Below, one piece after another: positions 46,992-64,000 of a DNA stretch of 64,000 nucleotides. The DNA is taken from NCBI GenBank assembly GCA_025612375.1, contig JAAXKN010000005.1:124001-188000 (forward strand), in the 5' to 3' direction. Each line of letters begins with the position of its first letter. Position 1 is the first letter of the stretch. The stretch is from Ignavibacteria bacterium (GTDB taxonomy: Bacteria; Bacteroidota; Ignavibacteria; Ignavibacteriales; SURF-24). The translations under genes were made by a program, and so were the position numbers. The notes under the pieces are model-generated. The model made no database searches and was not told the DNA's origin. It saw only the letters and a list, made by a program, of their open reading frames with translations.

Positions 46992-46993
46992 CT

Positions 46994-48448
46994 TTAGAAG
47001 TAGCTCGATGAATCTGTGGTTGTACCCGTGAACATGCTGGAAGCTGTAAGAAGAGTTGCCAGCTGCGTCTGAAGAGCCTCGTACTTGCTCCTCAATACCT
47101 CGGCACTCTTATCGATGCTTGTCTGCTTGGCAGTTATCTTACTTGCCAGGTCCGTTACCGTGTTATTGTATGACGCATTGGCTTTAGCAAGATATCCTTC
47201 TGTTCCAACATAACGGTTTACCTGGCTATAGAGTGTAGTGGCAATGCCGTTTGTAGAATTAAAGATAGCACCAACGTCACTTAAGTTGTTTGAAATCATT
47301 TTGTCCAATTTCGAGCTGTCGGAAATTGTTAAGCCCCCGGTGGAGGTAAACGATATTCCGAGGTCTCCTAAGCGGTTAGGAACACCGGAAGAAAGTCCGT
47401 CAACCCTCGTGTATGCGGCATTAGCCATGCTCTGCAGAAGCGACATTGTGGTGGCATCTCCGGCCAGAGCGCCGCGTGAGGTTGTAGTAGTGGAACTGTT
47501 TGTCTTAAGATAGTAGTAAATTTCATTAAACTTTGTAACAAAGTTTTCAATCTTTGTTCTTACTGAAGAAGTGGATGTGGAAACCGAAATATTAATATTC
47601 GGATCGGTATCCTTCATCTCTGCTGTAAGTGTAAAGGTAAGACCATCTACAGCATCATTGACTGTATTTGAACTTCTCTGAAAGTCCAGTCCGTTGAAAT
47701 TAAATTTAGCGTTTAAGAGGCTGCTGTCATAAATATAGCCCGAGGTTCCGTCACTTACTGTAGTATCGCGGTCAACCGTGGGCGGAGTGCCTGCATTCAA
47801 AGCATATCCCATGTAACCCAGTATGGCCGAAGAGGTGGCGTCTTTTTCCTGAAGAACGATCTTGTTATCCAGCCCCATATTCTTTGACGTAATTGAAAGC
47901 CTGCTTGTGGTGCTGTCGGGGGAAAATGCCGCGGCTGAAACTATCTCGGGCGCCTGTGAATTAATGGCATCCTTTATTTTCTGCAGTGAGCTCTTAAAAT
48001 CCGTTACCGTGTCATCAATTGTAACACTGATATCTTTTGTAGTCGTCCCGGAAACAATCTGAAAGTTATACGTCCCGTTTGCCAGCTTTGCCGCCGAAGA
48101 CAGATCCTGTCTGGAAACTGTAATGTCGTTTTTTGCCAGCTGCTGAACTCTCATGGTGTAGCTGCCCGGGACTGCTTTTGAGGAGGCCGAGGCCGACATG
48201 AATGAGCTGCTCGAAAGTGTGGCAGTCATAGTCGGGACAAAAAGTGAGCTGCTGTCTGTGGCTTTAAGGTCACTTAGCTGCGACTTCAGTGAATCGAGTT
48301 TTGAGCTTAAAGTTGTATAGGTTGAGATCTTATTTTCATAGCTTGTTTTTCTTGTAGTCAGCGGTGATATCATTCTGCTTTGCTCTGAAGCAGTATAGCT
48401 GCTGATTAAAGAATCAATGCCTGAGCTTGTTAATGCATCGATAGCCAT
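46994..48448 (-). CDS. fliD: flagellar filament cap protein FliD
   Basis: The 484-residue protein caps the filament tip and helps flagellin fold into place. The N-terminal domain starts IDALTSSGIDSLISSYTASEQSRMISPLTTRKTSYENKISTYTTLSSKLDSLKSQLS. The middle contains the strand-rich cap domains. The C-terminal part has VNRYVGTEGYLAKANASYNNTVTDLASKITAKQTSIDKSAEVLRSKYEALQTQLA. Length is typical. It follows fliS and precedes the chaperone-like gene by two bases. Confidence 0.93.
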   Translation of the reverse strand: MAIDALTSSGIDSLISSYTASEQSRMISPLTTRKTSYENKISTYTTLSSKLDSLKSQLSDLKATDSSSLFVPTMTATLSSSSFMSASASSKAVPGSYTMRVQQLAKNDITVSRQDLSSAAKLANGTYNFQIVSGTTTKDISVTIDDTVTDFKSSLQKIKDAINSQAPEIVSAAAFSPDSTTSRLSITSKNMGLDNKIVLQEKDATSSAILGYMGYALNAGTPPTVDRDTTVSDGTSGYIYDSSLLNAKFNFNGLDFQRSSNTVNDAVDGLTFTLTAEMKDTDPNINISVSTSTSSVRTKIENFVTKFNEIYYYLKTNSSTTTTSRGALAGDATTMSLLQSMANAAYTRVDGLSSGVPNRLGDLGISFTSTGGLTISDSSKLDKMISNNLSDVGAIFNSTNGIATTLYSQVNRYVGTEGYLAKANASYNNTVTDLASKITAKQTSIDKSAEVLRSKYEALQTQLATLLTASSMFTGTTTDSSSYF

Positions 48449-48496: not shown

Positions 48497-48835
48497 TTAT
48501 TTTTTTTCAAATGCACTCATCCAGGTATCCCTGAGCTCAGAGAGAATTTTATGAACTATGTCATAATTCTGTTGTCTCATCTGATCCTGGCAGAACTTGT
48601 AAAGGCGCAGCAGACCATTGGAAATTTCACTGACGTCAGGCCTGTCAAAACTAAGAGAGTTAATAAGTTCCTGAATTGCATTATTAGTCCTCACCATATC
48701 GTGTTTCTGGCAGTTAACAATAGCAAAGTCATAGATCTTTATTAAAAGCTGCTGCGGTGTAGCCTCAAGTATTTCCTTTGCCAGATACTGGTTAGCTTTG
48801 TTATAAGCCGGACGTGCATATGCTGTGCTGTACAT
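48497..48835 (-). CDS. fliS: flagellin export chaperone FliS
   Basis: The 112-residue protein is helical and binds the C-terminus of unfolded flagellin. It begins YARPAYNKANQYLAKEILEATPQQLLIKIYDFAIVNCQKHDMV, close to the family pattern Y-x-x-(T/N)-x-(V/I)-x-(T/S)-A-(S/T)-P-x-x-L. Its C-terminal helix DIVHKILSELRDTWMSAFEKK fits too. It lies between the flagellin genes and fliD. No promoter was recognised just before it, while a terminator separates it from the flagellin gene. Confidence 0.92.
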   Translation of the reverse strand: MYSTAYARPAYNKANQYLAKEILEATPQQLLIKIYDFAIVNCQKHDMVRTNNAIQELINSLSFDRPDVSEISNGLLRLYKFCQDQMRQQNYDIVHKILSELRDTWMSAFEKK

Positions 48836-48871: not shown

Positions 48872-48899
48872 AGCCCTCCTCCCGTGAAAGAGGAGGGCT
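48872..48899 (-). terminator. terminator after the downstream flagellin gene
   Basis: AGCCCTCCTC and GAGGAGGGCT form a perfect ten-base-pair stem with an eight-base loop between fliC and fliS. On the minus strand it is followed by GTTCTAAAAC, a weak T-run. It probably ends most flagellin transcripts, with partial read-through to fliS-fliD. Confidence 0.7.
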
Positions 48900-48948
48900 T
48901 GCAATGTGCGAGAATTAAACCCAGCTGATTAACAGTTTGATTTAACTA

Positions 48949-49938
48949 TTACCTAAAGAGCTGAAGTACGTTCTGAGGAGCAGAGTTAAGCTGGCTCAAC
49001 ATTGAAGTAGCTACACTAGAACCTATCTGAGCCTTTGTAGCGTTAAGCTGTTCCATTGCCATATCGGCGTCGAACAAGCGGCTTACACTTGACTGAGCAT
49101 TTGAGATAGCTGATGTTAAGTACTCATCCTTTACATCAAGTCTCTGCTGGAAGTTACCGATCTTTCCTAAAGCATCACCGATGATCTTCTCAAACTTACC
49201 CAGAGCTGAACTAACGTCGGCCTTGCCGGAAGTCATGGAAGTTACGCTGGCCAGGTTTGCAATTTCCTGAGCTGAAGTAGCATCATCTGTTGTTGTCAAA
49301 GAAGCGAAGCTGTTCAGTGCAGTTGCAATGTCAGAAGCAACTGAGAGTGAGAATCCGCTGTTTGAAATTGATGTACCGGTTGTGCTTGCAAGGCCGGCTG
49401 CAAAATCAAGGTTAATTCTGTCGAAAGAATCAGCACCGGTCTGGAATGTGAACGAGTTTGCCAGTGATCCCAGGTTTGCACTTGTACCAACACCGCCGGC
49501 ACCTACTGAGGATAGTGCCGAAGCACCTGATAAAAGCTGGGTGTTGTTGAACTTTGTTGAGTACATGATGTTTGAAATTTCCTGACCCAAAGACTTGATG
49601 TTGTCAGCAAGAGCTGTTCTGTCTTTTGTAGGATCGGTTGCATCAGCAACATAGCTTCTGATCTGTGTCAGCTTGTCTTTTATCTGCTGAAGGGCACTTT
49701 CAGCTGTTGAAAGCATGTTCTTTGCTGAACCAATGTTACCCTGAGCTGACTTCATGAGCTGAACTTTTGAATCAAGAGACTTTCCAACGTTGTAGCCTGA
49801 TACGTCATCGGCAACAGAGTTGATTCTTTTTCTTGTTGCCAGACGGAGCTGAGCGTTCTGAGTTTCAGCATTAGCTTTGTTAAGAGCGTTGTAAGCGTTT
49901 AATGCGCCAATATTAGTGTTAATCTGAAAAGTTGACAT
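48949..49938 (-). CDS. fliC: flagellin, copy 2
   Basis: The start is ATG 49938 (MSTFQINTN), not the in-frame ATG at 49980, since GGAGG lies just before it and both flagellins then have 329 residues. The N-terminal axial domain is INTNIGALNAYNALNKANAETQNAQLRLATRKRINSVADDVSGYNVGKSLDSKV. The C-terminal one is VSRLFDADMAMEQLNATKAQIGSSVATSMLSQLNSAPQNVLQLFR. The central region is short and Ser/Thr/Ala-rich, offering many possible O-glycosylation sites. Codons 38-205 are identical in DNA to copy 1. A sigma-28-type promoter lies at 50033-50059. It is the filament protein. Confidence 0.96.
   Translation of the reverse strand: MSTFQINTNIGALNAYNALNKANAETQNAQLRLATRKRINSVADDVSGYNVGKSLDSKVQLMKSAQGNIGSAKNMLSTAESALQQIKDKLTQIRSYVADATDPTKDRTALADNIKSLGQEISNIMYSTKFNNTQLLSGASALSSVGAGGVGTSANLGSLANSFTFQTGADSFDRINLDFAAGLASTTGTSISNSGFSLSVASDIATALNSFASLTTTDDATSAQEIANLASVTSMTSGKADVSSALGKFEKIIGDALGKIGNFQQRLDVKDEYLTSAISNAQSSVSRLFDADMAMEQLNATKAQIGSSVATSMLSQLNSAPQNVLQLFR
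49323..49827. repeat. 505-base block identical to 50534-51038
   Basis: Base-by-base comparison of the two flagellin genes shows no difference over this stretch (offset 1211), including all synonymous positions. The sequence diverges at both ends: G/T at 49322 and T/C at 49828. It covers flagellin codons of about 38-205. Confidence 0.9.
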
Positions 49939-50032
49939 AAAATACCTCCATGTATTTTGTCTGTTTTCTTTTACGGGCATCCGTGCCCGTGTTTGTTTGA
50001 ATTTGAATTATGAGATCTAATTCTCAATATTA

Positions 50033-50059
50033 CTATCGGCACCTTAAATTAAAAGTTTA
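50033..50059 (-). promoter_or_regulatory. sigma-28 (FliA) promoter of flagellin copy 2
   Basis: On the minus strand: TAAA (50059-50056), 15 bases, then GCCGATAG (50040-50033), a near-perfect match to TAAA-N15-GCCGATAA, the consensus recognised by flagellar sigma-28. It lies 95 bases before the flagellin start. Confidence 0.88.
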
Positions 50060-50126
50060 GTACTTGTAATTTAAAAAGATTTTATTTTTTAAAGTGAAGT
50101 CTGAAAAGAAAGATTTAAGATATAAA

Positions 50127-50148
50127 GGCACGCTGTTTTCAGCGTGCC
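50127..50148 (-). terminator. terminator between the two flagellin genes
   Basis: GGCACGCTG-TTTT-CAGCGTGCC is a perfect nine-base-pair hairpin just past the stop of copy 1. On the minus strand it is followed by TTTATATCTTAAA. Each flagellin gene therefore appears to be its own transcription unit. Confidence 0.85.
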
Positions 50149-50159
50149 CCGTTTGGTGA

Positions 50160-51149
50160 TTATTTAAAGAGCTGAAGTATGTTCTGAGGAGCAGAGTTAA
50201 GCTGGCTGAGCATTGAGGTTGCAACCTGTCCGCCTATCTGAGCCTTTGTAGCGTTAAGCTGTTCCATTGCCATATCGGCGTCAAACAAGCGGCTTACACT
50301 GGCCTGGGCGTTTGAGATAGCTGATGTTAAGTACTCGTCCTTTACATCAAGTCTCTGCTGGAAGTTACCGATCTTTCCTAAAGAATCAGAAACAAGCTTT
50401 TCAAATTTTCCGATAGCTGATGATACATCAGCCTGACCTGAAGTCATGGTTGTTACGCTGGCCAGGTTCGCAATTTCCTGAGCTGAAGTAGCATCATCTG
50501 TGCTCGTAAGGACGGCAAAACTGTTCAGTGCATTTGCAATGTCAGAAGCAACTGAGAGTGAGAATCCGCTGTTTGAAATTGATGTACCGGTTGTGCTTGC
50601 AAGGCCGGCTGCAAAATCAAGGTTAATTCTGTCGAAAGAATCAGCACCGGTCTGGAATGTGAACGAGTTTGCCAGTGATCCCAGGTTTGCACTTGTACCA
50701 ACACCGCCGGCACCTACTGAGGATAGTGCCGAAGCACCTGATAAAAGCTGGGTGTTGTTGAACTTTGTTGAGTACATGATGTTTGAAATTTCCTGACCCA
50801 AAGACTTGATGTTGTCAGCAAGAGCTGTTCTGTCTTTTGTAGGATCGGTTGCATCAGCAACATAGCTTCTGATCTGTGTCAGCTTGTCTTTTATCTGCTG
50901 AAGGGCACTTTCAGCTGTTGAAAGCATGTTCTTTGCTGAACCAATGTTACCCTGAGCTGACTTCATGAGCTGAACTTTTGAATCAAGAGACTTTCCAACG
51001 TTGTAGCCTGATACGTCATCGGCAACAGAGTTGATTCTCTTTCTCGAAGCAAGACGAAGCTGAGCCTTCATGCCCTCAGAGTTTGCCTTGTTCAGAGCGT
51101 TATATGCATCCAGCGCGCCAATGTTCGTGTTAATTTGAAATGATGACAT
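50160..51149 (-). CDS. fliC: flagellin, copy 1
   Basis: The 329-residue filament protein starts with MSSFQINTNIGALDAYNALNKANSEGMKAQLRLASRKRINSVADD and ends APQNILQLFK. A GGAGG lies five bases before ATG. It differs from copy 2 in the first 37 codons and after codon 206, by several conservative changes plus many silent ones. The 505 bases between are identical. Only 36 bases separate it from the glycosyltransferase gene upstream. A weak sigma-28-like match (TTCA-N15-ACCGATAA on the minus strand, 51309-51283) lies inside that gene, so this copy's promoter is uncertain. The FliC name is generic; which copy dominates the filament is unknown. Confidence 0.95.
   Translation of the reverse strand: MSSFQINTNIGALDAYNALNKANSEGMKAQLRLASRKRINSVADDVSGYNVGKSLDSKVQLMKSAQGNIGSAKNMLSTAESALQQIKDKLTQIRSYVADATDPTKDRTALADNIKSLGQEISNIMYSTKFNNTQLLSGASALSSVGAGGVGTSANLGSLANSFTFQTGADSFDRINLDFAAGLASTTGTSISNSGFSLSVASDIANALNSFAVLTSTDDATSAQEIANLASVTTMTSGQADVSSAIGKFEKLVSDSLGKIGNFQQRLDVKDEYLTSAISNAQASVSRLFDADMAMEQLNATKAQIGGQVATSMLSQLNSAPQNILQLFK
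50534..51038. repeat. 505-base block identical to 49323-49827
   Basis: This is the partner copy inside flagellin copy 1. The identity ends abruptly at both borders (T against G at 50533, C against T at 51039), while the coding sequence on both sides shows ordinary divergence, including silent sites. The sharp borders suggest one recent conversion tract. Confidence 0.9.
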
Positions 51150-51185
51150 TATTACCTCCGTGTACTTGGTTTATTGTATAAGAAT

Positions 51186-52688
51186 TTATTTTATGAACTC
51201 CTGAATCTGTTTTTTTACCATTTTTAGTTTTGCCGCAACTTCCGGCAGGTAGGCAAATGAATTTTCTGCCTGGCAAAGAAGCTTATCGGTTTTTATAAAA
51301 TCGCCTGAATTGACATACATAGAGATCATGAAAAATACTGAAGCCGGGTCTTTGATTGCGTAAGTTAAAGACATTTCATACGCGTTCAGGGCTTCCTTCT
51401 CCATTCCATTTTCGAAATATGCAAGCCCCAGCGAATTAAGGTAATGGAAGCTGTTTCTTAAATTTGAGGGGATAGCCTCCAGCAGCTGAAACTTATTTTT
51501 CCTCAGCATATATTTATCTATAAGTGCAATTACAAGCTCGAAACTGTTTTCATCCGTTATTTTTCCAATTTTCCCGAGCAGCGAGTCATTTATCTCCTCG
51601 CTTAAGAAAAGAGCCTTTACAGCGTTCAGAAAGTCGTTTGAGCCGGCTTCATTGCTGTCGGCTTTATATAGCTCATTAAAGTAGTAGTTGAACTCAGCTT
51701 TGTTGTCGGCTATAACCGAAGCCTTAAGCCCCAGATAAATTATCAGCTTGTCGTTAACGTATATCTCGTAATCCTTGCTCTTGGGCATTCTGTTTGCTTC
51801 AAGTGAAGAGCGGCAGAACTTCAGCGCATTCATGCTGTCGCCCATCTTAAGTAATATCTTTGCAAGGACCATGTTAAGAAGCGGCTGGCGGCTGTCATAC
51901 TTTAGTCCCTGAAGCCCATAATCCAAGGCTTCCTTCAGCCTGTCGCGTTCCGAAAGATAAGAGGCAATAAACCGGCAGGCGTGGGACTTCATGAAGTATG
52001 TTGCATCACTGCAGGCAAGAGTCCTTCTGAAATATTCTACCGCGCTCTCCTTGTCGTCTAAAACCGCATATGTCTGCGCTAACTGGAAATTATTGTACGC
52101 CGTAGAATTCGACTGAATTTCCTTAAGCAGATATTCCAGGTTTCTTTGTGCTTTTACCTTCAGCGCGTCCTTTGAAATATTGTACCCCAGGTGCAGTATC
52201 TCTATATCGGAATTGGCTATCTTATATTTTTCTTCAATGAGCGATTTAACAATCTGTTCATGGATTGTCCCCCTGAATTCAATCCGCGGATTATTCAGGA
52301 ACAATCTCTGGTACCTCATGTAGTTGGGTTTTCCCGTAATGGGGTCGGGGCTGTTTACAATACAGTTGTAGCCCGTTTTCGAATTCTGCTTTATGACTTT
52401 TCTTAAAAGAGGGATTGATTTTTCGCTCAGCCTTTCATCGGCATCAAGATAAAGTATCCAGCGGCCCGATGAATTCTTAAGAGCAAAGTTTCTGGCTGCG
52501 GCAAAATCGTTTATCCAGTTAAAATGAAGTACCTTTGCGCCGTAGCTTTTTGCTATTTCAACAGTAGCATCGGTTGAACCGGTATCTACCACAACTATCT
52601 CATCGGCGATACCCTTGACCGATTCAAGACAGCCCTGAAGATACTTTTCTTCATTTTTTACGATCATGCTTAATGTTAATTCAGGCAA
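51186..52688 (-). CDS. family 2 glycosyltransferase with TPR domain
   Basis: The 500-residue protein begins with a GT2 catalytic domain (about 1-230). It carries LSMIVKNEEKYLQGCLESVKGIADEIVVVDTGSTDATVEIAKSYG, with the nucleotide-binding Asp residues, and WILYLDADERLSE with the DxD-like metal site. The rest is a helical TPR-like array, with YNNFQLAQTYAVLDDKESAVEYFRRTLA being one repeat. No signal or membrane segment is present, so it acts in the cytoplasm, where flagellin is glycosylated before export in known systems. It lies 36 bases upstream of flagellin copy 1 on the same strand. TPR parts may bind the protein acceptor. Target is inferred. Confidence 0.87.
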   Translation of the reverse strand: MPELTLSMIVKNEEKYLQGCLESVKGIADEIVVVDTGSTDATVEIAKSYGAKVLHFNWINDFAAARNFALKNSSGRWILYLDADERLSEKSIPLLRKVIKQNSKTGYNCIVNSPDPITGKPNYMRYQRLFLNNPRIEFRGTIHEQIVKSLIEEKYKIANSDIEILHLGYNISKDALKVKAQRNLEYLLKEIQSNSTAYNNFQLAQTYAVLDDKESAVEYFRRTLACSDATYFMKSHACRFIASYLSERDRLKEALDYGLQGLKYDSRQPLLNMVLAKILLKMGDSMNALKFCRSSLEANRMPKSKDYEIYVNDKLIIYLGLKASVIADNKAEFNYYFNELYKADSNEAGSNDFLNAVKALFLSEEINDSLLGKIGKITDENSFELVIALIDKYMLRKNKFQLLEAIPSNLRNSFHYLNSLGLAYFENGMEKEALNAYEMSLTYAIKDPASVFFMISMYVNSGDFIKTDKLLCQAENSFAYLPEVAAKLKMVKKQIQEFIK

Positions 52689-52810
52689 CCTTTTTATTCT
52701 CTCTTTCTGTTAAATTCCACATCTACATACAAAGCAAGAGATATGCCACAAATGAAAAGCCTCCGGAAGCGCCAATTTGCGGTTTATTTTGCATTTTACC
52801 TGTCTGTAAT

Positions 52811-52836
52811 TGGTCAATATTCCGCAATTGTAAGTA
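52811..52836. repeat. conserved 26-base intergenic element, copy A
   Basis: TGGTCAATATTCCGCA continues into ATTGTAAGTA. It matches the element at 57061-57086 in 22 of 26 positions. It lies 123-148 bases before the start of the glycosyltransferase gene at 52688 and just past the stop of the gene ending at 52858. Confidence 0.7.
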
Positions 52837-52857
52837 CCTGTACTTTGTGAAGCAAAA

Positions 52858-55800
52858 TCATTTTAAGAGCCGGGCAATTGTTTCGGCGGTGTGTTTCCAG
52901 GTAAAGCCCTTCATAAATTCCGCGGCCAGCTTTCCTTTCTGCCTGATACTCTCCCTGTTATGGTATGCATACTCAATAGAGGCAATAATTTCATCCAAAT
53001 GGGGTTCTTCCCATGTTGTAAGGAGCCCGTTTGTCTGATCAAGTATTTTATATTCACTTAATGTCTTCAGTTTATATGAAGTTTCATCTGTCAGAACGTC
53101 CTTATGACCCGAAGTAAACGATGCTATAACAGGTCTGCCGCAGGCCATGTATTCCATCATTACAAGGTTTGTTCCCCCTTCACAGCGGTTTGGGAAAAGA
53201 CCGATATCGGTTTTAAGGTAGATCTCGCGCAGCTTTTCGTTTGGCACCAGGGGAAGCGAGAATACCCTTTTCATATCCAGGCCGTTAATATTCAGGAGGT
53301 GAGTAATAAACTCAGGCCAGTCGCCGTCTGCCCATTCAAAGTTAATATACTTCGAGTTGCTCATTGGTAATACGCTTTGCGCCCACATATTATACCAGGC
53401 GTTAATGAGCACAATGTCGGGATATTTCTGCTGCAGGATCTGCACGGCTTTAATTACAATATCCTGGCTTTTTCTCAGTTCAAACTTTCCGCCGGAGAAG
53501 ATTACAAAAAGATCATCATTATACTTCGGTTCGGGCTCGGGATAAAACATTCCGGGGTCTATTCCCTGGATTGCTGTTGCGGAGTTAAATACTCCGTAAG
53601 ATTTTAACTTTTCCTCGTTCCAGGTAGAAGCTGCAATAATGAGGTCGTAGTCGCGTGCTTTTTTAATTGCCTCTTTGGGAAGCTCGGTTTCAAATACAGC
53701 CATGCCGTAATTATTCTCCCCCCAATTCCCGTTCGAGGTACTGAAGTCGGCATTTCTTAAAATGTGCAGCACCTTTCCGGGCACAGGGCCGGAATACCTG
53801 GGATCATTATGCGCCAGGTCTTCAAATTGAATAAATCCGGGGAATTCTTTTCTAAGGTTGTTGCTTACAACACCCCAGCCGAAATTTTCTCCGGTTGTAA
53901 GAGAAAGGAATATGGGCTTTGAATTCATTGTAGCAGGTTTCTCTTCTATTATTGCAGGATTAGTAATTTCATTATTTTTCTGCAGCATCTCATCTAGTGC
54001 AACACCAATTTCATCAAAAACGCTTTCCCAGCTGCCGACAGACTTTTGCCTGAACAGCCTGGCAGAAGGATACCACGGGGAATCATGCCCCTCAAGCATC
54101 CAGCGCCAGTCGGGCACATAGGTTAGAAGTATCCAGACCGGCTTACCCAGTGAACCGGCCAGGTGTGCTATGGATGTATCCACTGTTATTACAAGGTCAA
54201 GGCAGCGGATTGCCGCTGCGGTGTCTTCAAAATCGTTCAGGCCGTACTGGTTAAGGTCAACTATTCTGTCCTTAAATTCCGGCAGTTCTTTCAGGCGGTC
54301 TTCTTTTTGCAGACTGAAGAAAGTAAGGCCTTCTTTATCCAGCAGACTCCGGAAGTTCTTAAGCCTGCAGGATCTGTTCCTGTCGTTACTGTGCTGCGGA
54401 TTGCCTGCCCACACAATTCCGGCCTTAAGGCCTTTATAGTCTTTTAATATATTGTTCCATTTTGACTGGCAGTCAGGACTGATATGAATATCTATTGGCG
54501 GCGGCAGCTGCTCAACTGATGTATCCAGATAAAGAAGAAGGCTGATTAAGAAAACCTCGTAATCAAAATGCACATCCGGCTGAGAGCTGAAATTTCTTTC
54601 CACAAATTTGTCTATGCCCTCTGCCTCCTTCAGTATATTCCATAGCGATTTTTCGCATTCAAGAATTACCTGGCAGTTTTTTTTCTTCAGCTCCGGGATA
54701 AACCTCGCAAACTGGATTACGTCTCCAAGTCCCTGCTCCCCGAAAACAAGCACCGTCTTTCCATCCAGGGTAGAATCTTTTTCAAGAGGCTTCAAAACTT
54801 TTCTGTTTAGCGCCCATTCTTCCCTGAGTTTTCGCCACTCATATTCCTTCAGGCCTTCCGGCAGTTCCCCCTGCAGCATGAGGGCAAGCCCCTTATTAAA
54901 GTGGGCATTCTGATGCTGTGGATTTTCCGAAATGGCGAGGTCAAAATATTTAATTGCCTCTTTGTTTCTCTTGCTCCTGAATAGTGCATAGCCCTTGTTG
55001 CCATAGGCAAGGGCCCTTATGGAATGGTCTTCCTGTGCCTCAGGGCTGGCCAATATGCTTTCACAATCGCGGATGGTCTGGTCAAATAAATTCAAATCCG
55101 CATTAACCGTGCACAGGTTTATTTTTGCGGTTAAGTATTTTTCATCTGCTTTTAATGCCCTTTCAAGAAGAGACTTTGCTTCGGTGTGCTTTCCGATTGA
55201 TGAGTACAAAAGAGCAAGGTTATTCAGTGCCTCCAGACAATCGGGGTTTATTTCAAGCGCAGCCTTATAATATTCTGCCGCCCTGCTTCTGTTCTTAAGA
55301 CTCTGGAAACATAAGCCGGCATTAAAGAGTATGTTGTCCGTCCTGACATTCTGCTCAAGAAGCCGGTTATAAGCTTTAAGTGACTCTTCATACTCCTTGA
55401 GCCTGAAACATACGCTTCCCATAAGGCTGAGGGCATGCAGGTTACCGGGCTCACCCTCCAGGATATTCAAAAGCATATTTTTAGCTTTCTGATATTCCTG
55501 GTTTTCAAAAAAGCGGACAGCGTTTGAAAGCAGGATCTGGCTCTCAAGTTCAATGTGCTGGTCGTATTTTTCCAGGTAATCCTTGAGCAGTACGGGGTCG
55601 TTTTTTATCAGGGTATCGAAATGGAATTTTGCACTTTCAGGTTTTCCAATCTGGCGGTACAGGAGTGCCGCCTTGAGGTGAGCGGGCATGAATTCAGGAT
55701 CATATTGAAGCACCTTAAGAAAGTATTCTAGTGCAGTTTCATTTTCACCCGTATTCTGGTAGTTTAATGCCAGATTATATAGTGCCTCTTTATGTGAGGG

Positions 55801-55995
55801 TTCAAGTCTTGTTACCTCTTTAAGCAATTCGGTTGAAGCCTTAAAGTTTCCCGACTTTGCTTCAACAACAGAGAGGAAAAACAGGGCCGAAAGATTATCT
55901 CTTTTTATTTTCAACAGCTCTAAAAGAATATTCCGGGCCTGCTCAAGCCGGCCTTCCTGGAAAAATGAGACTGCAAGCTGGTATTTATCATCCAT
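52858..55995 (-). CDS. TPR protein fused to GT9/SPINDLY-like and GT4 glycosyltransferase domains
   Basis: The 1045-residue protein has about ten TPRs (1-390), for example AEYYKAALEINPDCLEALNNLALLYSSIGKHTEAKSLLERAL. A GT9-like domain (about 410-650) follows, with VLVFGEQGLGDVIQFARFIPELKKK and LVITVDTSIAHLAGSLGKPVWILL, then a GT4-type domain (about 695-1045) with CEGGTNLVMMEYMACGRPVIAS, the E-x7-E motif. Two different transferase folds on one chain could add two sugars in turn. TPR-transferase fusions resemble O-GlcNAc transferase in layout, which suits a protein acceptor such as flagellin. No export signal is present. It precedes the GT2/TPR gene. Confidence 0.87.
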   Translation of the reverse strand: MDDKYQLAVSFFQEGRLEQARNILLELLKIKRDNLSALFFLSVVEAKSGNFKASTELLKEVTRLEPSHKEALYNLALNYQNTGENETALEYFLKVLQYDPEFMPAHLKAALLYRQIGKPESAKFHFDTLIKNDPVLLKDYLEKYDQHIELESQILLSNAVRFFENQEYQKAKNMLLNILEGEPGNLHALSLMGSVCFRLKEYEESLKAYNRLLEQNVRTDNILFNAGLCFQSLKNRSRAAEYYKAALEINPDCLEALNNLALLYSSIGKHTEAKSLLERALKADEKYLTAKINLCTVNADLNLFDQTIRDCESILASPEAQEDHSIRALAYGNKGYALFRSKRNKEAIKYFDLAISENPQHQNAHFNKGLALMLQGELPEGLKEYEWRKLREEWALNRKVLKPLEKDSTLDGKTVLVFGEQGLGDVIQFARFIPELKKKNCQVILECEKSLWNILKEAEGIDKFVERNFSSQPDVHFDYEVFLISLLLYLDTSVEQLPPPIDIHISPDCQSKWNNILKDYKGLKAGIVWAGNPQHSNDRNRSCRLKNFRSLLDKEGLTFFSLQKEDRLKELPEFKDRIVDLNQYGLNDFEDTAAAIRCLDLVITVDTSIAHLAGSLGKPVWILLTYVPDWRWMLEGHDSPWYPSARLFRQKSVGSWESVFDEIGVALDEMLQKNNEITNPAIIEEKPATMNSKPIFLSLTTGENFGWGVVSNNLRKEFPGFIQFEDLAHNDPRYSGPVPGKVLHILRNADFSTSNGNWGENNYGMAVFETELPKEAIKKARDYDLIIAASTWNEEKLKSYGVFNSATAIQGIDPGMFYPEPEPKYNDDLFVIFSGGKFELRKSQDIVIKAVQILQQKYPDIVLINAWYNMWAQSVLPMSNSKYINFEWADGDWPEFITHLLNINGLDMKRVFSLPLVPNEKLREIYLKTDIGLFPNRCEGGTNLVMMEYMACGRPVIASFTSGHKDVLTDETSYKLKTLSEYKILDQTNGLLTTWEEPHLDEIIASIEYAYHNRESIRQKGKLAAEFMKGFTWKHTAETIARLLK

Positions 55996-56089
55996 TCATT
56001 AAATCCGGAATAATTTAAGAGTAGTGATGGAAGCACCATGTGGTTTCAGCACCATCGGGGCCACACTTTGCAAAAACCACATTTTATTC

Positions 56090-56929
56090 CTATAAAGTTG
56101 TATGTGCTTCAGGATATCCTAAAATTTCATTTACCTTTGCCAGGCCTTTTACTGCAAACATGTTGGATGGATTATTCTTTACAGCCCATTCAAACATTGT
56201 TTTGGATTCCTTTTCCATCTCCTGGAGGAAGAACACTTCTCCAAGTCCGGCACAGGCCTGTGAAGAATTAGGATTCAGTTTAAGTGAATTCTCAAAGCAG
56301 GCCCTGGCATTTTCAGTTTCCTGAAGCGCCAGGTAATTAAAGCCCCTGAAATTTTCAAGCGTGGATATTTTCTGTGAAGTATCTTTGCTTACTGCTTTGC
56401 GGTTGAAGTAAAGTTCCGCCTCTGTAAGCTTGTTTAGCACTTCCTGAAACTTCTTTTCGGAAAAGAGCTTGTATGCTTCACCAATGAGGTGATAGAAATT
56501 TTCCTTTTTGGAGTCTAGTGTTTCGAGATTCAGTGTGTTATGGTCCTCAGGAAGTCCGAGACCCTTGTTCACTTTGGCCAGGCCTTTTGCCGCAAACTGG
56601 TTATCGCTGTTATAGTCAAGGGACCATTCATACATGGCCTTTGCCTCATAGTCGTACTCACAGAGATAAAATACCTCGCCCAAACCCGCGCATGCCTGTG
56701 AGGATGCAGGATTAAGGCTCAGGGATTTTTCAAAGCATTCCCGGGCTTTTTCCAAAGAATCCATACCAAGATAATTGAAACCCTTAAAGTTCAGCAGACT
56801 AGCCTCGTTTTCGGAATCTCCGGGAGCCAGCATGTTCTCGGCATCATTAAGCGTCTCGAGAGCACGGTTGAAGTCCTTTTGCTCAAATAATTTATACGCC
56901 TGTCCGAACAATGTCTCCAATTGGTTCAT
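56090..56929 (-). CDS. TPR protein made of two copies of one module
   Basis: The 279-residue protein consists of two similar halves of about 135 residues. The first runs MNQLETLFGQAYKLFEQKDFNRALETLNDAENML to KGLAKVNKGLGLPEDHNTL. The second runs FYHLIGEAYKLFSEKKFQEVLNKLTEAELYF to KGLAKVNEILGYPEAHTTL. Each contains KARECFEKSLSLNPASSQACAGLGEVF or its near copy. The same module occurs once more in the partial protein encoded at 60047-64000. There is no catalytic domain, signal or membrane segment, so it is probably an adaptor for the neighbouring transferases. Confidence 0.85.
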   Translation of the reverse strand: MNQLETLFGQAYKLFEQKDFNRALETLNDAENMLAPGDSENEASLLNFKGFNYLGMDSLEKARECFEKSLSLNPASSQACAGLGEVFYLCEYDYEAKAMYEWSLDYNSDNQFAAKGLAKVNKGLGLPEDHNTLNLETLDSKKENFYHLIGEAYKLFSEKKFQEVLNKLTEAELYFNRKAVSKDTSQKISTLENFRGFNYLALQETENARACFENSLKLNPNSSQACAGLGEVFFLQEMEKESKTMFEWAVKNNPSNMFAVKGLAKVNEILGYPEAHTTL

Positions 56930-56974
56930 ATTTAGACCTTTTTAAGTTTTGTTATAATTAATAAGTAAATTATA

Positions 56975-56989
56975 ACAATAGGCATGCCA
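56975..56989 (-). promoter_or_regulatory. weak sigma-54-like site before the TPR gene
   Basis: On the minus strand: TGGCAT-GCCTA-TTGT, with correct GG-to-GC spacing except that the -12 C is T. The predicted start point is about 35 bases before the ATG at 56929. One key base is missing, so this is only a candidate. Confidence 0.3.
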
Positions 56990-57060
56990 TTGATTTTCAG
57001 GCAATTAGGTGTGTTTTGTGCATTAATTTTGCCATGGACAAAGAAAAGGATGGAATCGGG

Positions 57061-57086
57061 TGGCTAATATTGCGCAGTTGTAAGTA
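57061..57086. repeat. conserved 26-base intergenic element, copy B
   Basis: TGGCTAATATTGCGCA continues into GTTGTAAGTA. It differs from copy A (52811-52836) at four positions and lies 132-157 bases before the TPR gene start at 56929. Both copies therefore hold a similar distance to a downstream start on the minus strand. Confidence 0.7.
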
Positions 57087-57103
57087 TATGAAATTACTCT
57101 TTA

Positions 57104-57136
57104 GCCCGGACTTTTTCCCAAGGAAAAGGTCCGGGC
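57104..57136 (-). terminator. hairpin after the 919-residue transferase gene
   Basis: Arms of 15 bases (GCCCGGACTTTTTCC / GGAAAAGGTCCGGGC, one mismatch) enclose a short loop, 29 bases past the stop at 57165. The T-run on the minus side is poor, so it may be a weak terminator. Confidence 0.6.
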
Positions 57137-57164
57137 AAATTTATAATACAATGAAAGGAAGTGA

Positions 57165-59924
57165 TTAAAGCTTATCCAGCTCTCTTTGTAAAATAAGCAG
57201 GTTTTCCGTTGCCACTTCATTATCAGGCTCTTTACGGATCACCCTTTCCAGGAGTTCCGCTGCAGCCTGGTAATTCTTTTCCATAATTTCAATTACCGAA
57301 AGGTCGTTTAAGGCATCCAGGTTCCCTTCTTCCATCAGGAGTATTGTTTCCAGCACCTTGCGGGCTGAAGTGAGGTCTTCACTTTCAATGAACGCCTCGG
57401 CTTTCTCAATCATATCGCCGTATGGCCCTTTGGGCTTTTGGGTTTCATTGCCTGTCTGATAGTTTTCAAAGCCTTCAGCTGTATTCTGAAAAGAATCATT
57501 CTTCAATTGGGCCATTTTTTCGTCAATCAGGCTGCTGAGGCAGTTCATGTTGTCGAGTGCCACATCGTTCATTGGATCAATCCTGATTACTCTTTCAATA
57601 AAATCCGCAGCTGCCTCATAGTCCCCGGCCATTATGGATATTACGGCAAGATCGTTCATGGCGTCAACATTTCCAGGGTCAGTCTGCATCAGGTGCATCA
57701 GAATATCCACGGCCTCGTTCAGTCTGTCAGATTCAATCAGGCTTTCGGCCAAAATGATTTCGGAATTTCTGCCAGGTGCCTCATTAAAACTATTCATCAC
57801 ATTTCCTATTTTACTTTTAGTTTTACTCAAATTTTTGAAAGAGCTATTATACTGAGTTTTATTATCATTCAAAAGCATTTTATATTTATTCCGGATAATG
57901 TCACTTTCCTTCTCACTGAGGGGGCGGTTTCCCATTTCTATTCCGTTCTGGTTATAGTAGTAGAGGCCGAGGAACTCAGGAATGTGCAGCATCTTTGAGT
58001 TGTTGACAAATGCCATCCGGCACCAGAATTCATAGTCCGCAGCAGACATAAGGGATTCATCGAAATATCCGATTTTCTCATGCACACTCTTTCTCCACAT
58101 CGGCTGCGGCCCCATGAGGCATGCGATAAAAAAGTGTTCAGGATTATACGGAGGGCGTTCCAGTTTTCCGGCAACAGTTCTACTTTCAAAGGTTTCATTT
58201 TCAATCTTTGTCACATACAAATCTGAATACACCAGGTCGACGTCTTCATTTCTGTCCAGGTGACCGGAAAGCACTTCCAGGGCATCACGCCTGTGCCTGT
58301 CGTCCGTATTTGCATTCGTAATAAATTTGCCCGAAGAGGCCTTAACGCCCCGGTTCCAGGCCTGGTAAATTGTTTCCCTTTCATCTGTTTTGATATACTT
58401 GATATCGGGGTGCTTTGATTTATATTCCCGGATTATGGCATCTTCATTTTCTTCAGAGCCGGTATTGACCAGAACAATCTCCAGCTCTCCCTTTTCATAG
58501 AGTGTCTGCCCCAGGAGGTCGTCCAGGCAGCCCCTGATGAATTTTTCGGAGTTAAAGACGGAGACCACGGCTGAAACCAGAACGTTACTCCCCTTATTTT
58601 TTTTCTTTTCTGATTTTGAATATGACTTACTATTTTGAACTTTTCTTTCCAGAATCTTTTCATAAAGCATCATGTACTCTTTCGCTTGTTTTTCAGCGGC
58701 AAATCTATCCCTGGCAATTCTGAGGCTTTCCGTCTTCAGGAATTCCGCATCCGCTTCAAACAGCACCCAGTAGATGCCTTCTGCCAAGTCATGATAGTTT
58801 TTTCTTTCTGCCAGATATCCGTTTCTTTTATGCTCAATCATGTCGGGAATCCCACCAGAATTAAAGCCCACAACAGGCGTCCCGCAGGCCAGCGACTCAG
58901 GAACGACGTTCGGGAGATTATCATCCAGAGACGGAATTACAAGTACATCCGCAATATTGTAAACCCCGGCCAACGCTTTTTCATCTGTTATCCTGCCGGC
59001 GTTTAATACCGTGAATGCTTCGGGCAGCTTTATTCCATCCGGAATATTTCCAAATATCAGCAAAGTAACATTATCTTTTACCTTTTCAGCCAGAAGTTCC
59101 AAAGCATCCCTCAGGAATGAAAATCCTTTTCTGGTCGTAAATGAATCAACACCAAAGAGAATTACTTTAGAATTTTCGGAAATGCCTGCTGCTTTCCTCA
59201 AAACCTTTTTATCATAGTTCCTGAATACATCCATAGGAAACCCATTGGCAATAACCGAGACAGAGTTGTTTCCTGCTAAAGAACTCTTAAGGGCCTCATT
59301 TCTTAACCAGTTGCTGGGAGTGACAAAACTGATATTCATCTTTCTGTAAGCATTCAATTTTGATTTCCAGTTTTCATTTGAATCGTCCTTTGGATTACCG
59401 GAAGCAATCTGAGGACACTTGCCGCATTCATAATGGAAATTCCGGCACTCTTCTGCGTAGTGGCATCCGCCTGTAATAGGATTCATATCGTGCAAAGTCC
59501 AGACTATATTTTTATCCCTGAACTGACTGCTGATTTTATTAAAATTCAGGAGTCCAGACATCCAGTGGAAATTAATTATATCGGCTTCACGGACTTCCAT
59601 TAGCATATCAAAGTCCACGTCAACCGAGGATACATCGGTAAATATTTCAAGACCTGGATCCCGTCCGGGATAACGCGACATATTTGTGAACCATTTATTC
59701 CATTGCTGCATCATCTTTTCGGACCTGTAAACATCAGGATTAAGGCAATAACCGGGTACTGGAGGATTGATTTCCGGAATTACTCTTACAGAGTCGTCCC
59801 TTGTAGTCTTGCCTGCTACCAGAAGACATGAATCAACCCCGTTTAATATTAGCCCTTTGTGCAGCCTATAGGCGGCTTTCCCTGCCCCGCCTGCATCAGT
59901 AGCACAAATATGTACAACTTTCAT
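57165..59924 (-). CDS. GT4-GT2-TPR fusion glycosyltransferase
   Basis: The 919-residue protein starts with a GT4 domain (1-430), with KVVHICATDAGGAGKAAYRLHKGL and NLPNVVPESLACGTPVVGFNSGGIPDMI. A GT2 domain (about 446-690) follows, with VSAVVSVFNSEKFIRGCLDDLLGQTL, ITNANTDDRHRRDALEVL and MGPQPMWRKSVHEKIGYFDESLMSAADYEFWCRMAF. The C-terminal part (about 735-919) has two types of TPR-like module separated by a polar linker. Both module types recur at the end of the next gene upstream. No membrane segment or signal is present. It probably acts in the cytoplasm, building a glycan on a carrier or on protein. Confidence 0.88.
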   Translation of the reverse strand: MKVVHICATDAGGAGKAAYRLHKGLILNGVDSCLLVAGKTTRDDSVRVIPEINPPVPGYCLNPDVYRSEKMMQQWNKWFTNMSRYPGRDPGLEIFTDVSSVDVDFDMLMEVREADIINFHWMSGLLNFNKISSQFRDKNIVWTLHDMNPITGGCHYAEECRNFHYECGKCPQIASGNPKDDSNENWKSKLNAYRKMNISFVTPSNWLRNEALKSSLAGNNSVSVIANGFPMDVFRNYDKKVLRKAAGISENSKVILFGVDSFTTRKGFSFLRDALELLAEKVKDNVTLLIFGNIPDGIKLPEAFTVLNAGRITDEKALAGVYNIADVLVIPSLDDNLPNVVPESLACGTPVVGFNSGGIPDMIEHKRNGYLAERKNYHDLAEGIYWVLFEADAEFLKTESLRIARDRFAAEKQAKEYMMLYEKILERKVQNSKSYSKSEKKKNKGSNVLVSAVVSVFNSEKFIRGCLDDLLGQTLYEKGELEIVLVNTGSEENEDAIIREYKSKHPDIKYIKTDERETIYQAWNRGVKASSGKFITNANTDDRHRRDALEVLSGHLDRNEDVDLVYSDLYVTKIENETFESRTVAGKLERPPYNPEHFFIACLMGPQPMWRKSVHEKIGYFDESLMSAADYEFWCRMAFVNNSKMLHIPEFLGLYYYNQNGIEMGNRPLSEKESDIIRNKYKMLLNDNKTQYNSSFKNLSKTKSKIGNVMNSFNEAPGRNSEIILAESLIESDRLNEAVDILMHLMQTDPGNVDAMNDLAVISIMAGDYEAAADFIERVIRIDPMNDVALDNMNCLSSLIDEKMAQLKNDSFQNTAEGFENYQTGNETQKPKGPYGDMIEKAEAFIESEDLTSARKVLETILLMEEGNLDALNDLSVIEIMEKNYQAAAELLERVIRKEPDNEVATENLLILQRELDKL

Positions 59925-60046
59925 TATTTTTACAGCCTCTCAATTATTGCAAGTTTAGGATTATTTTATAACTGCTATATATAACAAGTCTGGTTCTCCA
60001 TTACACCTGAGAAAGACCTTCCCACTTTCCAATTCATCCATAGGGA

Positions 60047-63000
60047 TTAAAGTTTATCCAGCTCTCTTTGTAAGATCAGGATGTTTTCTGCCGCCACTTC
60101 ATTTGATGGATCCTTTTTTATTACCCTCTCCAGAATTTCCGCTGCAGCCGGATAATTCTTTTCCATAATTTCCACTACAGAAAGGTCATTTAAGGCATCT
60201 ATGTTTTCACTTTCCAAAAGCAGAACGGTTTCAAGTACCTTGCGGGCTAAAGAAAGCTCACCGCTTTCTATGAAAGTTTCTGCTTTTTCCACCAGACGGC
60301 CGTACTGTCTTTTGTCCGTCTTATATTCAGATCCAATTCCCTGCCTTTTAGATTCTTCTTTGCTTTCCTTAAGGCTGGAGTCCGGGTGTTCTATCTCACT
60401 CGGCTGGCTGCTTTTCTCTTCAAGCAATTCACTAAGGTAATTCATGTTCCCTAAGGCCACCTCATTCCCCGGATCGATTCTTACAACCTTTTCTAAAAAA
60501 TCTACCGCAGACTCAAGATCTCCCGTCATTATTGATATTACGGCCAGATCATTTAAGGCATCTGTATTGGCCGGATTTTTATTGATGATCTCACTTAACA
60601 GTTCAACAGCTTCACCCGGATTGTTTTGTCCAATAAGCTCTTCGGCTCTATTAAGTAGCTCATTCATGCTGCTTCCCGTATAATTACTCTCAGATATCCT
60701 TCCGTTTGAGTCCGGATTTTTAATACTGTTCACGCTGTAAGGTTCAGAAGCAAGGCTATTGTGATCCTTAGATAGGCCTAATTTACTATTTGTCTTTGCA
60801 AGTCCCGCAATTCCACAGCTATCTTTAGGCTCTTTCATTAAAGCCATTTGGAACACATGCTTTGACTCCTGGTAACGTTCAGAGACAAAGAAAGCCTCAC
60901 CTAGTCCCAGATATGCCGGAACTGAACCAGGATTAGATCTAAGTTCACGTTCGAAGTAATTGATTGCATTTTTAAGATCGTTTTTCTTTAGGTAGAGATT
61001 CCCATAAAGGTTCAGGACGTTTCCATATTTATCATCCATGTCTGAGCGGCCTTCGGATTCATAAATATCTATGGATTGCTTTAAGACTTGTTCAGCCAAA
61101 TCATACTCATTATCAACGAAATGCACCAGAGCCCTTAGGTAGCTTTGTATGAATTCATCCTGATGAATAGGGAAGGATATGGACCGTTCTTTTACCTGTT
61201 TTTTCTCCAACCAGATTTCATCAATATTAACGCCCCACTTTTCCAAAAATTTCTTTTCATTTAACCTGATAAGCTTTGCATATTTTTCGTATCCATCGGC
61301 CCTGAAGGACTTTGAACCGTAATGATGAACAAAAACATCCTCTGCTATTACAGTCTTATAGCCTGCTATATGCGACCGGAGACAGAAATCGTCATCCTCG
61401 AAGTTTCCGGGGCTGAATCGTTCATCAAGTCCGCCAATTAAGTCAATTACTTCCTTCTTGATAAGGGTGCAGAGGAACGAAACTCTCAGGTACTCTAAGG
61501 TCTTTCCGGAATTCTGCCTTTTTATCATCTTTGCATATTTATGCATTTCCGGGATAGTCTTATATTTTGCATTTTCATCCATCTGTATTCCGCTGACCAG
61601 ATTACTTATTGGTCCTACAATGCCTGTTTTGGCGTCCGACTCCGCTACTTCCAGCATTCTCTGGAGCCAGCCCTCAGTCACAACAATATCATTATTAGCA
61701 ATAACCAGGTAGTTCCCTGAAGCAGCTTTCAAGGCCTGATTAATGGCCTTTGGAAATCCATAGTTGGAATCATTGAGTATAACCTTAATCCTGGCATATT
61801 TTTTCTGCAGGTTTTTTAGGTATGTAACTGTACCATCAGTACTGGCATTGTCAACAATAATAATTTCATACTTCAATTTTGTATGTTTCAGAATCGAATT
61901 AATGCATTCCTTGTTAAACTTAAGACCGTTAAAAGTCAGTACCACTATCGAGACAAAAGTCTCACTTTTCTTCTTTTGAGAAGATGAAACTTTATAGAGG
62001 TCCTCTCCGGGAAGCAGATACTCCTTAATTATATTTGCATCTGTAGTAAAAGTCCTGCCGTCGTTTTCTGTAATAAAATCAGGCTTAACTTTACCGAGCC
62101 ATTTTCTGTGCAGGCGTTGGATGTTTTCAGATACTTTAGAAAACCTTTCTGCTCCGCTTTGCGATTCATAGTGAATGACGACACTTTCAGGCTGATAGAC
62201 GAGACTATATCCCCTCTGCCTTAGCTTAAAACACAGGTCGACATCCTCATATCCATTCCAATATCCTTCATCAAATCCGCCCACCTCTTCGAAAGCGGAC
62301 CTGCGGACCAGCAGGCATGCAGCAGTTAAAGACTGGTATTTTGTCATCACCTCAGCTTCACTGCAATCAGCTGGCTGATGTAAATATAAATGCTGAGCCA
62401 GTAAGGGATCCTTCATTTTTCTATGATCGAATATCCCGATGCCGGCATGCTGTATGGTACCATCTGGAAACAGCAGTTTACTTCCTGCGGCGGCTGCTTT
62501 AGCATCCTTATCAAGTATTTTCACCAGCATTTCCATCCATCCTTTTCTGACTTCGGTATCGTTATTTAAGAATAGAAGGTAACTGCCGCGAGCCGTTCTT
62601 GCTGCCAGATTATTTGCTCTTGAAAATCCCAGGTTTCGTTCTGATCTCAGTACCGAGAAATTGCTTTTGTTCCCCTGGTATTCCTTTAATAGCGTCTGGG
62701 TTCCATCAATAGAGGCATTATCCACAATAATCAGCTCATAATTCTCCTGTGCCCCGGTATTCCTATAAACCGATTCAAGGCACTTTTGCGTAAGTTCAAC
62801 CCTGTTATAAACAGGAACTATAACAGACACTTTTATCCCGGTTGATTCTGGTAATTTTCCGGGAGCCTTGTCCTTCACTGCCTTATCTGAAAAGCTTAAT
62901 GCAATTTCCGGCTTTACATACAGAGATTTCTGCCCATTTAAGTATTTTTGCAGGTTAAATGGCAGCTTGCCGCCTTTAACATTTCCGATCCTCTGCTCAT

Positions 63001-64000
63001 CTTTCCATTTCCTGTATTCTCTGTGCTCAATTGTCTCTTTTTCATCAATTGCCTTTAATGTCTCTTGATCAATTACTGCTGCTTTACCGGATGGCAAATG
63101 AAATCCGATATTTTCATCCAGCATGTAAATGTTTTGCAAGTTGGACACATTAATTCTAAAACCGTAATCAGCATCCTCTTCGCCGTAAAGACCGTAGTCT
63201 TCACACCAATACCCCAAAAGTTTGTTTGTTCTTTTAGGTAGCAATATACATGCTCCTCCCAGGATACCCCCTGTTTTAGGCCGGACATCAACGCCATTTA
63301 TCTTCTGTATGGGATAACTGACAGGCTCAAAGTTATATGCTACTGCCCCGGCAGTGGGAATCTTTTGGACCGCATTGATCATCTCACGAAGCCAGTTCGG
63401 CTTCTGAATGACTATATCATTATCCAGCTTCAGGTAATACTCAGCCTCAGGTTCCTTTAGCCATGCCAGATTGGATGCTTTGGCAACTCCGATATTGGAA
63501 TCAAGAAGAATGAGATTCTTAATTATCCCCCTGCGTTTCAATTCTTTTAGATACTCCCGGGTTCCGTCGGTACTTCCATTATCCACAACAGTCAGCACGT
63601 GCGGAAAACTTGTGTATTGAACAATAGATTTAATTGACTGTTTTGTATATTCAAGGCGGTTAAATGTTATCATGCATATATTTACAAATCCCGGGTTTTT
63701 AGAATCAAAAATAAACTGATAGTTATATGCGTAGTTTTCTTTTACAAATGGAAGATGAGCGGCATAAAAGTGTTTAACTGCATCAGATTCCATTACACTC
63801 TGATTGATGTTTGCATTCACAACACCTGAGGAGTTTTCCAAATATAAGCCCAGGAAATCCCGAATGTGGAACATTTCATGTTTTGCGGCAATCCTGCACC
63901 AAAATTCATAGTCACCGGCGGATTTCAGCTCTTCATTAAAAAAGCCCAATTTCCAGTGCAGGGATTTTCTCCACATCGGCTGGGGCCCCATGTGGCATCC
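60047..64000 (-). CDS. multidomain GT2 glycosyltransferase with TPR tail (N-terminus beyond window)
   Basis: The frame is open from the stop at 60047 to the window edge, so at least 1317 residues are seen and the start is missing. The edge segment, with MGPQPMWRKSLHWKLGFFNEELKSAGDYEFWCRIA, is the end of one GT2 domain, homologous to that in the 919-residue protein. Three more GT2 domains follow: VNICMITFNRLEYTKQSIKSIV near 63680, VSVIVPVYNRVELTQKCLESVY near 62830, and VSIVVLTFNGLKFNKECINSIL near 61950. Each has an acidic nucleotide-binding site. The tail (61150-60047) holds TPR modules shared with the two genes downstream. Four transferase units could build a chain of several sugars. Confidence 0.87.
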   Translation of the reverse strand, partial: GCHMGPQPMWRKSLHWKLGFFNEELKSAGDYEFWCRIAAKHEMFHIRDFLGLYLENSSGVVNANINQSVMESDAVKHFYAAHLPFVKENYAYNYQFIFDSKNPGFVNICMITFNRLEYTKQSIKSIVQYTSFPHVLTVVDNGSTDGTREYLKELKRRGIIKNLILLDSNIGVAKASNLAWLKEPEAEYYLKLDNDIVIQKPNWLREMINAVQKIPTAGAVAYNFEPVSYPIQKINGVDVRPKTGGILGGACILLPKRTNKLLGYWCEDYGLYGEEDADYGFRINVSNLQNIYMLDENIGFHLPSGKAAVIDQETLKAIDEKETIEHREYRKWKDEQRIGNVKGGKLPFNLQKYLNGQKSLYVKPEIALSFSDKAVKDKAPGKLPESTGIKVSVIVPVYNRVELTQKCLESVYRNTGAQENYELIIVDNASIDGTQTLLKEYQGNKSNFSVLRSERNLGFSRANNLAARTARGSYLLFLNNDTEVRKGWMEMLVKILDKDAKAAAAGSKLLFPDGTIQHAGIGIFDHRKMKDPLLAQHLYLHQPADCSEAEVMTKYQSLTAACLLVRRSAFEEVGGFDEGYWNGYEDVDLCFKLRQRGYSLVYQPESVVIHYESQSGAERFSKVSENIQRLHRKWLGKVKPDFITENDGRTFTTDANIIKEYLLPGEDLYKVSSSQKKKSETFVSIVVLTFNGLKFNKECINSILKHTKLKYEIIIVDNASTDGTVTYLKNLQKKYARIKVILNDSNYGFPKAINQALKAASGNYLVIANNDIVVTEGWLQRMLEVAESDAKTGIVGPISNLVSGIQMDENAKYKTIPEMHKYAKMIKRQNSGKTLEYLRVSFLCTLIKKEVIDLIGGLDERFSPGNFEDDDFCLRSHIAGYKTVIAEDVFVHHYGSKSFRADGYEKYAKLIRLNEKKFLEKWGVNIDEIWLEKKQVKERSISFPIHQDEFIQSYLRALVHFVDNEYDLAEQVLKQSIDIYESEGRSDMDDKYGNVLNLYGNLYLKKNDLKNAINYFERELRSNPGSVPAYLGLGEAFFVSERYQESKHVFQMALMKEPKDSCGIAGLAKTNSKLGLSKDHNSLASEPYSVNSIKNPDSNGRISESNYTGSSMNELLNRAEELIGQNNPGEAVELLSEIINKNPANTDALNDLAVISIMTGDLESAVDFLEKVVRIDPGNEVALGNMNYLSELLEEKSSQPSEIEHPDSSLKESKEESKRQGIGSEYKTDKRQYGRLVEKAETFIESGELSLARKVLETVLLLESENIDALNDLSVVEIMEKNYPAAAEILERVIKKDPSNEVAAENILILQRELDKL

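Follow-up and report, generated by a model that had tools for sequence, protein, structure and literature searches.

A conserved island of giant glycosyltransferase-TPR proteins beside the flagellin genes of an Ignavibacteria bacterium, a candidate system for cytoplasmic flagellin glycosylation

The window, a stretch of 64,000 nucleotides (C5:124001-188000) within a 5.2-Mb assembly listed as 100% complete (genome G000), contains a flagellin locus on its minus strand. Positions above 64000 carry the window numbering on into the neighboring contig sequence. The locus encodes a probable FliD-type cap protein (46994..48448), assigned from its position and sequence character and kept beside flagellin in relatives, and a probable FliS-type flagellin chaperone (48497..48835), assigned from its size and its position between flagellin and FliD, with no NCBIfam match. 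These are followed by two flagellins, the proposed acceptors, B (48949..49980) and A (50160..51149, 329 aa). For flagellin B, the start set by the mechanical ORF call is probably 14 codons early: an ATG at 49938 lies behind a GGAGG, and a start there gives 329 aa, the length of flagellin A. A pattern scan of the window returned 22 sigma-28-like sites against 8 expected by chance, mostly not in front of genes, and only the site before flagellin B (50033-50059) was used. The earlier note had cited the Ser/Thr-richness of the flagellins as evidence for a glycan; their Ser+Thr content of ~21% is the ordinary median for the flagellins of relatives, and this argument was dropped.

Adjoining the flagellin genes is an island of ~23 kb (51186 to 74078) encoding seven soluble proteins, all on the minus strand. 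Closest to flagellin lies P500 (51186..52688; 500 aa, TTG start), which contains a GT2 domain and a TPR domain and is the proposed priming flagellin O-glycosyltransferase of the GmaR type. It is followed by P1045 (52858..55995; 1045 aa), with a TPR superhelix, a GT-B domain of GT9 fold and a GT4 domain; P279 (56090..56929; 279 aa), containing TPRs only; P919 (57165..59924; 919 aa), with GT4, GT2 and TPR regions; and P2260 (60047..66829; 2260 aa), with one GT4 domain, five GT2 domains and TPRs. The P2260 gene is cut at 64000 by the window, which keeps its C-terminal 1317 aa (60047..64000), and is an intact single open frame in the contig, ending at 66829. Beyond it, two more large genes run in the same direction to 74078. 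These encode P1266 (66826-70626; 1266 aa), with methyltransferase, GT4, TylF-type O-methyltransferase and methyltransferase domains, and P1106 (70758-74078; 1106 aa), with TPRs, a radical SAM/SPASM domain, a methyltransferase domain and an alpha-toroid-like C-terminal part. The ORFs of all five island genes in the window are real and on the minus strand, and their domains are as first described (GT2+TPR, TPR+GT9+GT4, TPR only, GT4+GT2+TPR, and multiple GT2+TPR).

Intergenic gaps across the island range from -4 to 235 bp, the negative value being a 4-bp overlap between the P1266 and P2260 genes, and the P500 stop lies 36 bp ahead of the flagellin A start. Because of this spacing, co-transcription of the island genes is plausible. 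The outer edge of the island is marked by a 620-aa protein (74594-76456; L004:15594-17456) that has a hydrophobic segment around residue 509 and could be assigned to no Pfam family with confidence; relatives 30-73% identical to it occur near the islands of G001, G038, G040, G055, G060 and G073. Elsewhere in the genome there is just one further long GT2 frame (1125 aa, G000:C5:44648-45136), ~130 kb away on the same contig.

In total, the island contains 12 glycosyltransferase domains (7 GT2, 4 GT4 and 1 GT9-like) in five proteins, as well as four methyltransferase domains. The window alone contains 8 full glycosyltransferase domains and the tail of one more; the earlier note had counted at least nine. 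Twelve transferase domains need not equal 12 sugars. Active-site-type motifs are present in the GT2 domains (DxD or related), in the GT9 domain and, by a simple pattern, in all but one of the four GT4 domains; CxxxCxxC is present in the radical SAM domain of P1106. The proteins show no sign of membrane segments or signal peptides, as had been noted before: by hydropathy alone, none of the seven contains a 19-residue stretch above a Kyte-Doolittle value of 1.6. No polymerase, flippase, initiating phosphosugar transferase or membrane protein was found among the island genes. The sequence beyond 64000, where the earlier note had proposed to look for sugar-nucleotide genes, instead supplied the rest of P2260, P1266 and P1106, and no nucleotide-sugar synthesis gene lies inside the island. 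Sugar-modification genes are present in the locus (the sugar-type O-methyltransferase and the radical SAM protein of P1266/P1106), and the islands of relatives include a DegT aminotransferase (G046) and a UDP-galactopyranose mutase (G038). The best NCBIfam names (MamA, SunS, MftF and others) scored far below cut-off and were not used as protein names; PHROGs gave only methyltransferase matches, for P1266.

Occurrence across the order was examined in a sample of 146 genomes, comprising G000 and its relatives, with P500 relatives counted at E below 1e-60 and flagellin counted by N-domain matches. A flagellin N-domain is present in 95/146 genomes and a P500 relative in 85/146, distributed as 85/95 flagellin-positive versus 0/51 flagellin-negative genomes (Fisher p 1.2e-29, the genomes not being independent). 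The names attached to the P500 relatives are Ignavibacteriales, Melioribacteraceae and Ignavibacteria. In the cultured Stygiobacter electus (L087), P500 adjoins flagellin. Six genera (g6, g8, g10, g12, g13 and g32) include flagellin-negative genomes without P500 alongside genus mates with both, which points to repeated joint loss of P500 and flagellin, a link that is not one shared event. P500 was missing by this search from 10/95 flagellin-positive genomes, of which four contain TPR-GT9/GT4 proteins and several are poor assemblies. Where P500 and flagellin lie on one contig (n = 64), the gap between them is ≤1 kb in 52 cases and ≤20 kb in 62; a further 21 P500-positive genomes have no listed flagellin on the contig of P500.

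The wider arrangement is likewise retained. GT2-TPR, TPR-GT9(-GT4) and large multi-GT proteins lie upstream of flagellin in nearly all regions around the main flagellin cluster (up to 20 kb examined), and in longer regions of relatives the transferase domains number as many as 16 and protein length reaches 3071 aa. These domain counts come from home-made HMMs, which may undercount where domains are divergent or regions are cut. Similar GT2 proteins occur beside flagellin in Paenibacillus, Neomarinimicrobiota, Eremiobacterota and others. Because it recurs next to flagellin throughout the order, the arrangement is not due to chance. Glycosyltransferase genes adjoining flagellin, the mark of a flagellin glycosylation island, are thus found here and kept across the order. 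The recurrence beside flagellins in other genomes that the earlier note had proposed to look for was therefore seen, and the opposite pattern it had envisaged, with the island lying away from flagellins among lipopolysaccharide genes, was not seen in the regions examined.

P500 is the core enzyme of this arrangement. A profile of 28 P500 relatives, compared with PDB sequences, matched GmaR first (1.1e-56), with SunS among the next, and also matched the C-terminal GmaR structure 7x9r; the single P500 sequence likewise gave GmaR as its best match (5.6e-32). The two proteins have in common the marks VDTGSTD, W.NDF.AARN, DADE, HEQ and H.GY, and P500 contains a TPR domain behind the GT2 domain, as in the GmaR type. 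An AlphaFold2 model of P500 (mean pLDDT 89), compared with solved folds, gave SunS first (Z 25.4, 272 residues at 2.5 Å); ThuS scored Z 23.1, and carbohydrate GT2 enzymes did not exceed ~18. GmaR of Listeria monocytogenes is a flagellin O-GlcNAc transferase and an antirepressor of MogR (PMC9638930), and its authors proposed that its TPRs recognize flagellin (PMC9638930). Because of its sequence kinship with GmaR, its SunS/ThuS fold and the activity of GmaR on flagellin, the reading that fits P500 best is a direct protein transferase, which forms the conserved part of the system. That the target is flagellin, which the earlier note had proposed alongside surface proteins, is supported by the way P500 tracks and adjoins flagellin and by GmaR being its nearest match in sequence.

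The multi-domain proteins are built from related modules. P919 and P2260 are colinear homologs (GT4 region ~39%, one GT2 domain 53-56% and TPR tail 58% identical), P2260 having four extra GT2 domains. P279, whose position is kept in relatives, consists of two similar halves and is ~38% identical to the giant protein's TPR block. In the sister species G001, a single chain of 2162 aa corresponds to P919 1-714, then P2260 789-2033, then P919 443-919 (66-70% identity), as would be expected from recombination between shared GT2 modules. Because the two proteins are fused in G001 and separate in the window genome, this chain supports the view that P919 and P2260 would act in one pathway. An 18-kb contig of G001 (G001:C7, L037) is 98.9% identical to window 46960-61672, although a second island, G001's own and 78% identical, lies on C36; the C7 copy reflects either misbinning or a recent transfer. 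This near-identical copy is ~285 bp shorter in the region encoding the giant protein's TPRs, so the length of the TPR array may differ between members of one species.

Methylation is a predicted part of the system, because in G049, which belongs to another family, the P1106-P1266 pair also adjoins the island, at ~50% identity. In the PDB, the TylF domain of P1266 is nearest to MycF and NovP, the O-methyltransferases that act on antibiotic sugars in the synthesis of macrolides and novobiocin; this kinship suggests that a (deoxy)sugar is methylated. The C-terminal 390 aa of P1106 gave only weak Pfam matches (GH127, LanC-like, squalene cyclase and pectate lyase) and may be a new carbohydrate-active toroid.

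In P919 and P2260, the GT2 domains are more like general polysaccharide GT2s than like GmaR, so these proteins could extend something other than flagellin. In its full form, this explanation would have only P500, and perhaps P1045, act on flagellin, the multi-GT giants building a separate surface polysaccharide or glycoprotein glycan and merely sharing the operon. Some relatives, moreover, have P500 with few or no giants, the region of G055 containing a single GT domain. However, the island is devoid of the polymerase, flippase, priming phosphosugar transferase and membrane proteins noted above, the multi-GT proteins lie directly upstream of P500 and flagellin in most relatives examined, and P919 and P2260 have TPR tails in common and are fused in the sister species. 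We consider a separate glycan unlikely.

P1045 is a candidate for a second transferase of the protein type. A model of its TPR and GT-B part (pLDDT 86) matches the TPRs of OGT and the GT9 structure 3tov (Z 18.7, 255 residues at 3.2 Å). Strong TPR-GT9/GT4 relatives of P1045 are present in 40 genomes, 39 of which are flagellin-positive. In genomes of family f2, chains of 1640-1720 aa with three TPR-GT9 units lie directly before flagellin (L047:4091-9253; L051:11807 onward; L052:2484 onward). A TPR region joined to a GT-B domain is also the plan of FlmG of Caulobacter crescentus, a cytoplasmic flagellin transferase (PMC7591256) whose TPR half binds flagellins in a two-hybrid test (PMC7591256). 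On this precedent, flagellin might be glycosylated with pseudaminic or legionaminic acid, as in the FlmG or Maf systems, the island adding only outer sugars, and several relatives do contain a strong NeuB (for example G001, at E 1e-91). In G000, however, the best NeuB match reached only 9.7e-13, compared with 1e-70 to 1e-106 in genomes with a clear NeuB, and a search for the Maf-like family (PF01973, Maf/MptE-like) gave a sub-threshold match only (E 3.3e-4); the GT domain of P1045, moreover, has a GT9 fold. Since neither a convincing NeuB nor a Maf-like match above cut-off turned up in a genome listed as 100% complete, a pseudaminic/Maf route appears unlikely in G000, both the Maf and the nonulosonic acid routes were set aside, and the chance that such acids form the base of the glycan is very small.

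The kinship with GmaR, a bifunctional protein (PMC9638930) and the nearest P500 relative with a solved structure, also allows a reading in which P500 chiefly regulates the flagellum, as the antirepressor half of GmaR does, and glycosylation is secondary. This is highly improbable: the catalytic-type residues of P500 are invariant across the 28 relatives, P500 has 500 aa against the 637 aa of GmaR, and its best fold matches, SunS and ThuS, are not known regulators. A search of G000 for MogR gave no match, and neither did the control search, so that this negative is weak. A lipopolysaccharide or exopolysaccharide island was rejected as the main reading on two grounds: none of the island genes encodes a flippase, a polymerase, an initiating transferase or a membrane protein, and relatives without flagellin do not have the core gene.

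We therefore favor, with good confidence, cytoplasmic O-glycosylation of flagellin, in which the GmaR-like P500 would prime, the multi-domain chains would extend and P1266 and P1106 would modify the glycan. Flagellin, made in the cytoplasm, would first be modified on Ser/Thr by P500; we infer the acceptor residue and the sugar, GmaR being an enzyme that adds GlcNAc. The TPR tail of P500 probably binds flagellin. P1045, P919 and P2260 would then add sugars one after another from soluble nucleotide sugars, P279 perhaps serving as a scaffold, and P1266 and P1106 would methylate or otherwise modify the chain. The glycosylated flagellin would be exported last, via the flagellar type III system. We likewise infer that flagellin is glycosylated at all, by which chemistry and in which order the enzymes act, what the TPRs contact and how the glycan is built. 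Glycosylation of flagellin, domains acting in series and TPRs holding flagellin or one another are suggested by the FlmG precedent and the patterns of domain fusion. A bolder version, which we put forward tentatively and regard as rather doubtful, is a protein-glycan megasynthase made of giant soluble chains. Their TPR arrays would keep flagellin in place for several glycosyltransferase and methyltransferase domains working in a fixed sequence; the glycan would then be encoded by the domain composition, which would diversify as homologous modules recombine.

Islands for flagellin glycosylation are well documented; machinery fused into giant chains, as here, appears to be undescribed. In the open-access literature, we found no paper on flagellin glycosylation in Ignavibacteria, subscription papers being outside the search. 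The proposed system would extend cytoplasmic flagellin glycosylation to an order for which the open-access literature searched has no description of it, and suggests a pattern of a conserved GmaR-like primer combined with highly variable giant extension proteins. The fusions would make it possible to ask whether domain order in the chain dictates sugar order on the protein, and could offer a naturally occurring set of parts for engineering protein glycans with neither lipid carriers nor oligosaccharyltransferases.

Comparison of P500 with the peptide S-glycosyltransferases SunS and ThuS, its best solved folds, shows a common plan of GT2 and helical repeats, in enzymes that transfer directly to a polypeptide. 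SunS and ThuS glycosylate Cys residues of bacteriocins, whereas P500 is tied to flagellin. Like GmaR, P500 is soluble and encoded at a flagellin locus; the GT2 domains of the two are homologous, have signature residues in common and precede TPRs. It differs from GmaR in its shorter length, in the lack of evidence for an antirepressor role, and in being accompanied by 11 further GT domains and several methyltransferase domains. P1045 resembles FlmG by domain plan, in that N-terminal TPRs are fused to a GT-B transferase linked to flagellin, but it has an extra GT4 domain and a GT9 fold. FlmG, moreover, needs pseudaminic acid, whereas G000 is without a convincing NeuB, so no pseudaminic acid donor is expected.

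Among known islands, Aeromonas carries a flagellin heptasaccharide of variable methylation, specified by genes fgi-1 to fgi-12, and loss of one transferase leaves only the linking sugar (PMC7874193). In Clostridioides difficile, the first sugar, a HexNAc, is added by a transferase encoded next to fliC (PMC4441256). The islands of Enterobacteriaceae contain one to three GTs, and their GT41 enzymes can be fused to methyltransferase domains (PMC4875605). The island described here resembles those of Aeromonas, C. difficile, Geobacillus and Enterobacteriaceae (PMC7874193, PMC4441256, PMC5109656, PMC4875605) in placing transferases and methyltransferases beside flagellin. It differs from the enterobacterial islands, with their one to three GTs, in spreading 12 GT domains over five proteins, most of which have TPR arrays and the longest of which has 2260 aa (3071 aa in a relative).
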